From the NCBI RefSeq assembly GCF_006442545.2, contig NZ_CP083952.1:1240001-1304000 (forward strand): a stretch of DNA of 64,000 nucleotides. The letters are read 5' to 3'. Below are positions 6,061 through 40,301 of the stretch, piece by piece. The notes beneath the pieces were generated by a model that saw only the letters and a program-made list of their open reading frames with translations, was not told where the DNA came from and ran no database searches. This DNA is from Mesorhizobium sp. B2-1-8 (lineage in GTDB: Bacteria > Pseudomonadota > Alphaproteobacteria > Rhizobiales > Rhizobiaceae). A program made the position numbers and the translations under genes. Numbering within the stretch: position 1 is the first letter of the stretch; each line of letters starts with the position of its first letter.

Positions 6061-6150
6061 TGGCGGAGAGGGAGGGATTCGAACCCCCGATGGGCTTGCA
6101 CCCATGCCGCATTTCGAGTGCGGTGCATTCGACCACTCTGCCACCTCTCC
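6061..6150 (-). tRNA. tRNA-Ser, anticodon CGA (reads UCG)
   Basis: On the minus strand a 90-nt class II tRNA can be folded. The acceptor stem is GGAGAGG with CCTCTCC, the discriminator base is G and the CCA end is encoded. The anticodon stem-loop is CCGCA-CTCGAAA-TGCGG with anticodon CGA. There is a long variable arm (GGGTGCAAGCCCA region) and a T-loop GTTCGAATC. The long variable arm and anticodon identify serine. The 3' end faces the accessory strip to its left, the usual arrangement when an element has integrated at a tRNA 3' end. Confidence 0.95.
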
Positions 6151-6483: not shown

Positions 6484-7152
6484 ATGTTCGCAGTCATTAA
6501 AACGGGCGGTAAGCAGTATCGCGTTGCCGCCAACGATCTCCTGAAGATCGAAAAAGTCGAAGCCAATGTCGGCGATATCGTCGAAATCGGCCACGTGCTC
6601 GCGCATGGCGAGGGCGAGAATGTCACGTTCGGCGCGCCGTTCGTCGATGGCGCCTTGGTTACCGCCGAAGTCGTCGAGCAGGGCAAGAACCGCACGGTCA
6701 TCGCTTTCAAGAAGCGCCGCCGCCAGAATTCGCGCCGCAAGATCGGCCATCGCCAGCTTTTGACCACGGTGCGGATCTCCGAGATCCTGCTGGGTGGCGC
6801 CAAGCCGGCCAAGAAGGCCGCCGTGAAGGCGGAAGCCAAGGCCGAGGCTGCTGCCGAGGCCGCGCCGAAGGAAGCCAAGGCAAAGAAGGACGCCCCCAAG
6901 GAAGAAGCGAAGGCCGAGGCCGTCGCCGCGCCGCTGTTCAAGGCGCCGAAGGGCGAGCCGGACGACCTGACAGTGATCAAGGGCATCGGCCCGGTCGCCG
7001 CCAAGGACCTCGCCGAGCAGGGCATCATCACCTTCGCGCAGCTCGCCAAGCTCAGCGACAAGGATGTCGCCAAGATCGACGAGCACATGCCGTTCAGCGC
7101 CGACCAGATCAAGGACTGGCGCGAACAGGCCAAGGAACTGGCGAAGAAGTAA
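6484..7152 (+). CDS. rplU: 50S ribosomal protein L21 with C-terminal helix-hairpin-helix-like extension
   Basis: Residues 1-103 are ribosomal protein L21 (start [14 protein letters not shown]; signature [17 protein letters not shown]), which binds 23S rRNA in the large subunit. Standard L21 ends near residue 103. Here about 55 Ala/Lys/Glu-rich residues follow, then a compact domain at about 160-219 ([20 protein letters not shown] to [12 protein letters not shown]) with the VIKGIGP hairpin of helix-hairpin-helix proteins. Extensions of this kind are known in Rhizobiales L21. The same domain type closes LivG at 39,993-40,178. I start at the ATG at 6484, after GAAAGG; a longer in-frame lead from 6403 has no family counterpart. 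rpmA follows after 98 bp. Confidence 0.97.
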
Positions 7153-7250: not shown

Positions 7251-7520
7251 ATGGCACACAAGAAAGCTGGCGGCTCGTCGCGCAACGGTCGCGACTCGCA
7301 TTCCAAGCGTCTGGGCGTGAAGAAGTTCGGCGGCGAAGCCGTCATCCCGGGCAACATCATCATTCGTCAACGCGGCACGACCTGGCATCCCGGCGTCAAT
7401 GTCGGCATGGGCACGGACCATACCCTTTTCGCGCTCGAAACCGGCGCCGTGACGTTCAACAAAAAAGCCAACGGCCGAACCTACGTATCGGTCAATCCGA
7501 TTACCAAAGCCGCGGAGTAG
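7251..7520 (+). CDS. rpmA: 50S ribosomal protein L27
   Basis: The 89-residue product has the L27 signature throughout: [20 protein letters not shown], then [21 protein letters not shown]27 reaches toward the peptidyl-transferase centre of the 50S subunit. The N-terminus starts directly with AHKK, so there is no cleavable leader of the Firmicutes kind. It forms the usual rplU-rpmA pair and is followed by a strong terminator. Confidence 0.98.

Positions 7521-38828: not shown

Positions 38829-38829
<1 letters not shown>
37234..38829 (+). CDS. livM: Branched-chain amino acid ABC transporter permease LivM
   Basis: The 531-residue permease contains the LivM core from about residue 205 on: [40 protein letters not shown] and the coupling loop [20 protein letters not shown]. 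Its N-terminal 200 residues hold four or five extra hydrophobic segments of the LivHM N-terminal type, making it longer than E. coli LivM (about 425). The stop codon overlaps the livG ATG by one base (TGATG). Confidence 0.94.

Positions 38830-40300
<1,471 letters not shown>

Positions 40301-40301
<1 letters not shown>

Follow-up and report, generated by a model that had tools for sequence, protein, structure and literature searches.

The phasin PhaH of Caulobacter crescentus holds PHB granules with its N-terminus (Salinas et al. 2023, as summarized in the review PMC13052382), and the same review describes nonspecific DNA binding via its C-terminal helix-hairpin-helix (HhH) domain and disorganised PHB granules in the absence of the protein. 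A second described relative is protein-O of the RC-LH1 complex of Dinoroseobacter shibae, encoded between nuoE and nuoF, whose C-terminal domain is stated in PMC12079452 to occur also on NuoE and other proteins, its function being called obscure there. In the window (the whole 64,000-nucleotide stretch of Mesorhizobium sp. B2-1-8 DNA analyzed here), the C-terminal ~65 residues of ribosomal protein bL21 and of the ABC ATPase LivG are homologous (Table 1), and both match these described domains. As in PhaH, the HhH domain lies at the C-terminus and follows an N-terminal part bound to a host assembly, but ribosomal proteins, transporter ATPases and complex I take the place of the PHB granule as hosts. 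With its C-terminal part the PhaH model (NF045508) matched all six copies of the domain, hereafter the tail, found in this genome, up to model positions 231-233, and the model matched the whole L21 protein at 2.9e-11; no protein passed the whole-protein cut-off of 250 bits in any of 143 genomes, that of B2-1-8 included. Protein-O (PDB 8yy9_O), which differs in that its host part is a membrane helix, matched the LivG tail (E=4.5e-16), the L21 tail (E=1.1e-5) and the tail profile (1.3e-29); its tail is untraced in the map, in which residues 8-59 were built. When the tail was sought in solved structures, the Paracoccus-type NuoE 8qby_E matched just residues 4-203 of the Mesorhizobium NuoE. The tail is also borne by chain a of PDB 9wqv, which has 229 residues and goes by the name 'NADH:ubiquinone oxidoreductase 41 kd complex I subunit'.

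Table 1. Positions, in window coordinates, of the two tail-bearing genes, their parts and the neighbors of rplU.
Feature	Coordinates	Strand	Extent and evidence
tRNA-Ser (cga)	6061..6150	-	just upstream of rplU
bL21 gene (rplU)	6484..7152	+	222 aa, ATG start
bL21 core	6484..6798	+	residues 1-105; Pfam Ribosomal_L21p 119 bits, residues 1-101
L21 linker	6799..6948	+	Ala/Lys/Glu-rich, predicted disordered from pLDDT 26-41 (residues 101-150) and composition
L21 tail	6949..7149	+	residues 156-222; HhH domain, derived form without second GRI hairpin
bL27 gene	7251..7520
LivG gene	38829..40301	+	490 aa
LivG ABC ATPase part	38829..39641	+	residues 1-271; Pfam ABC_tran 105 bits (29-196), BCA_ABC_TP_C (246-271)
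LivG linker	39642..39983	+	residues 272-385; last 60 residues basic, Ala/Pro/Lys-rich
LivG tail	39984..40193	+	residues 386-455; canonical HhH domain, then ~35 more residues

An earlier note on this DNA had described one HhH-like domain on these two unrelated hosts, at 6961-7143 in L21 and 39993-40178 in LivG, and had suggested a common docking partner. The positions, which span L21 residues 160-220 and LivG residues 389-450, are borne out, the motifs that it quoted for the two tails are found in both sequences, and the Ala/Lys-rich composition that it gave to the linkers holds for both. In a single pairwise comparison BLASTP aligned the tails at 45.8 bits and E=1e-13, with 27 of 70 residues identical, and the Smith-Waterman score of 95 between the two segments was reached by none of 5000 shuffles of the LivG segment (mean 22.7 +/- 4.3, maximum 47). 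Profile-profile comparison of seven L21 tails against five LivG tails gave a probability of 99.5 over 68 columns, and its E-value of 6e-23 is a significant alignment in the very comparison by which the note had proposed to refute the relation; together these results rule out chance similarity. An origin of the tail by duplication inside the window is unlikely, since L21 tails are found throughout the order and beyond it in further orders, whereas all LivG matches bearing an organism name, among the 120 matches listed of 735, were from Mesorhizobium.

The HhH assignment likewise stood. Pfam HHH_5 (PF14520) matched the L21 tail above its curated cut-off of 27 (28.8 bits, E=1.8e-6); it was not among the Pfam matches of the LivG tail at E<=1, for which Pfam gave IMS_HHH alone (12.2 bits, below the cut-off of 24.4). 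In structure models the tail is predicted to form a domain of ~65 residues and five helices, with the helix order identical in L21 and LivG, and both models aligned best to HhH domains of RadA, Pol theta, RAD51 and NusA, no Foldseek match being obtained at E<=0.001. The RadA/RAD51 domain, 22-28% identical over the aligned part, differs in being the N-terminal part of a recombinase, and the NusA AR domains, which contact SuhB (6ib8), differ in being duplicated within a transcription factor. Four NCBIfam models cover the tail region, those for L21 (PRK12278), uS2 (PRK12311), NuoE (PRK12373) and PhaH. The label COG3743, a 5' nuclease, is applied to tail-bearing proteins (as for P0007), and an H3TH/COG3743 domain is mentioned on Halomonas PhaC2 in a PHA paper; neither Pfam nor the NCBIfam matches listed gave a nuclease family for L21 or LivG. 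A phage origin was rejected: no PHROG family matched either tail at E<=0.01, and the LivG tail had no match in 50,697 phage records. Our literature search by title and abstract, with a scope mostly outside subscription journals, found no treatment of the tail on L21, uS2, bL27, bS1 or ABC ATPases.

The window's bL21 is the sole L21 match in the genome. Its linker holds 11 K/R and 8 D/E in residues 104-152, that of LivG 13 K/R and 2 D/E in residues 326-384, and across 26 Mesorhizobium loci the L21 linker, under a slightly narrower definition, ranges from 22 to 64 aa. In Mesorhizobium the L21 tail has the first hairpin, lacks the second (FxGRIxR) and is one residue shorter, whereas the second hairpin is present in most other copies and most order-level L21 tails have the canonical form; the L21 copy of this genus is thus derived. 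The NCBIfam LivG model scored the window's LivG at 325 bits, under its cut-off of 362.

A whole-genome profile search revealed six tail copies, the sixth at E=1e-25 and the next match at E=1.2. The observation is confirmed and is larger than first stated. Besides bL21 and LivG the tail is carried by NuoE, by an ORF lying between nuoF and nuoG, by an ABC ATPase of the peptide type and by a protein with a membrane anchor, and the NuoE and further ATPase copies are ones that the earlier note had predicted. The peptide-type ATPase (Pfam ABC_tran and oligo_HPY) has a tail 77% identical to that of NuoE, and the small anchor protein consists of a membrane-helix-like N-terminus, a charged stretch that looks coiled-coil-like by eye and the tail. 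The nuoF-nuoG ORF matched no Pfam family except HHH_5 below threshold; a tail copy lies at the same place in S. meliloti pSymB, and such tail ORFs were seen at locus L006 (about 955-1707, +) and L292 (2560-3204) in Mesorhizobium and S. meliloti. Its identification as a phasin, like that of the out-of-class proteins L163, L164 and L185, was by eye, and these were not counted as phasins; no Pfam phasin match was listed for L006 and L164, both tested directly, or for L181. The uS2 of this genome, a 285-aa frame, had no tail among the matches of the whole-genome profile search. Linkers are basic in four of the six copies, with net charges of +1 and -5 in the remaining two.

Beyond this genome the tail is patchy. 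At E<=1e-6 a copy was found in 30 of 289 evenly drawn class-level genomes and in 53 of 199 phylum-level genomes, 50 of them within the class and three, with weak matches, outside it; the two samples overlap. Of 31 Mesorhizobium genomes searched, one lacked an L21 match, and at 28 of the 30 remaining loci L21 had the tail; so it did at 20 of 30 order-level loci (the best 30 of 59 L21 matches). Two L21 genes of the genus, at L047 (G474) and L054 (G468), lack the tail and retain a short Lys/Ala stretch, as natural deletions. When 159 distinct tails were typed by the part preceding them, the hosts were bL21 (59, a count inflated by two underlying searches that targeted L21), uS2 (15), bL27 (1) and bS1 (1), thus four ribosomal proteins covering both subunits; NuoE (28), LivG (5), protein-O-like proteins (5), peptide ATPases (3), coiled-coil anchors (3), nuo-operon ORFs (2) and a phasin (1); and three out-of-class proteins without host type. 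The other 33 comprised 32 with a hydrophobic stretch of membrane-helix strength before the tail in the open frame and one PHB depolymerase. For uS2, bS1, bL27, phasin and depolymerase hosts, a single example of each was confirmed with Pfam. A second set, the best 80 of 584 confirmed named loci, mostly from Rhodobacterales with Roseibium, Stappia, Ensifer and Agrobacterium, was obtained with a pattern favoring FKGRI-type tails and held 124 tail-bearing frames: NuoE 74, nuo-operon ORFs 2, peptide ATPase 1, protein-O-like 1 and other 46.

Across 155 non-redundant tails the most conserved positions were D-D-L, G-[VI]-G-P, L, G, Q, A, L, F-x-G-R-I-x-R, W, Q-A and L. The dN/dS of the L21 tail was 0.138 against 0.08 for the core (26 of the 28 tail-bearing loci, two having been removed by a motif filter), and that of the LivG tail 0.145 against 0.194 for the ABC part (5 loci); these ratios place both tails under purifying selection. 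For the 155 tails the tree required 45 host changes, against a possible minimum of 11 and a shuffled mean of 82.2, and its well-supported branches, 11 of 151 in a tree built on 68 columns with host labels derived partly from hydrophobicity, force at least 6 changes for membrane hosts, 5 for NuoE, 2 for L21 and 2 for peptide ATPases. The sole case of identical tails on different hosts proved to be one place entered twice, which adds a false host change to the tree. In the 38 of the best 80 of 584 named loci that carry both, the identity of NuoE and membrane-protein tails averaged 0.665 for pairs from the same locus and 0.647 for pairs from different loci (permutation value 0.007, 2000 permutations), and NuoE tails were 0.695 identical among themselves; hosts thus constrain the tail little. 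The pairs at L231 (0.91) and L234 (0.90) look like recent exchange, to judge by their identity.

We tentatively favor the reading that the tail is a shuffled HhH tether module with DNA (the nucleoid) as its likeliest target. The mobile module would consist of five helices in a domain of 65 residues, joined by a flexible and mostly Ala-rich linker to subunits of bulky or membrane-bound assemblies, and would bind DNA (or nucleic acid) nonspecifically, as reported for PhaH; from this analogy we infer that the L21 and LivG tails may bind DNA. The host assembly, be it the ribosome, complex I, an amino-acid or peptide transporter, a PHB granule or a membrane anchor, would thereby be leashed to the nucleoid: through the bL21 tail, 50S subunits would stay close to the nucleoid, and the tails of LivG, NuoE and the anchors would hold the chromosome near the membrane. 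This reading is favored by the PhaH model match in all six copies together with the reported DNA binding of PhaH, the bulky or membrane-bound hosts, the mostly basic linkers and the ribosomal hosts. A hand-made and incomplete map of ribosomal hosts in 58 genomes gave one kind in 30 (19 bL21, 10 uS2, 1 bL27), two kinds in 5 (4 bL21 with uS2, 1 bL21 with bS1) and none in 23, some of which do carry an L21 tail (e.g. G330, G334, G348, G393). A strict rule of one ribosomal host per genome is ruled out by the five; as a raw count from this map, a single kind is present in 30 of the 35 genomes that have any ribosomal copy, as if each ribosome needed no more than one tail, wherever placed. Against DNA as the target stand the near-neutral charge of the tail, the loss of the second hairpin in Mesorhizobium L21, a fold nearly as close to the protein-docking NusA AR domains, and a Glu at a position that is usually Ala in DNA-binding HhH motifs. 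As two of the six linkers of this genome are not basic and proven phasin hosts are fewer, we weighted the tether lower, and protein docking higher.

Docking on a protein is the serious main rival and a real possibility: through a common partner, tail-tail contacts or contacts with multi-HhH membrane proteins, the tails would bring ribosomes, complex I and transporters together there, at the membrane. The near-neutral charge and the closeness to the NusA AR domains, which contact RNA polymerase alpha, agree with it, as do the many membrane-anchored hosts, the near interchangeability of NuoE and membrane-protein tails and the proteins with two or three tails (L018, L112, L143, L146); the DNA binding reported for PhaH in the review speaks against it. 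The shared partner that the earlier note had suggested is only partly supported, whereas its claims of homology, fold and unrelated hosts stood in full. Three or four tails in tandem were also seen on some membrane proteins (P0001, P0003, P0093, L143, L146), which might serve as a hub should tails bind each other.

We consider it unlikely that the tail is an RNA-binding appendage, contacting rRNA or mRNA on ribosomal proteins and put to other uses elsewhere. The four ribosomal hosts would fit, and the tail shows weak similarity to Ribosomal_S13 in Pfam (L21, 0.03, below cut-off) and, by profile, to archaeal eL32 (E=0.0026 and 0.018), also a ribosomal protein with an appended HhH. The eL32 appendage and that of the PHB synthase PhaC of Haloferax mediterranei (PMC12028471) are probably independent of the tail. 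However, complex I, ABC ATPases and membrane anchors carry the tail as well, and a long flexible linker fits reach better than a fixed rRNA site. A shuffled appendage without common function, suggested by the absence of the tail at 10 of the 30 order-level and 2 of the 30 genus-level L21 loci and by its rarity in the class, is improbable given dN/dS values near 0.14 on both tails, below the ABC core in LivG, and the retention of tails while linker lengths vary.

If the tether reading is true, a cell-wide system would extend over ribosomes, complex I, nutrient transporters, the photosynthetic core, PHB granules and membrane anchors. That many Alphaproteobacteria tie their large machines to the nucleoid, or to each other, by one shared recombining plug-in domain is a broader proposal that we put forward as rather doubtful. 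A DNA-tether HhH was known before for one phasin; what is new is the wide range of hosts, the finding that the Mesorhizobium L21 copy is derived, the connection with PhaH and the indications that hosts have exchanged tails. With the tail seen on ATPases of amino-acid and peptide transporters and on four ribosomal proteins as well, isolated oddities become one testable question, namely whether these bacteria tether translation, respiration and uptake to the nucleoid or to some scaffold held in common.

Two minor observations concern the neighborhood of rplU. The bL27 gene adjoins that of bL21 in the window, and at L031 (G262; 934-1710, +) the tail is found on bL27, as if moved to the gene next to bL21. 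The small minus-strand ORFs just upstream of rplU are the shadow of the tRNA-Ser gene.
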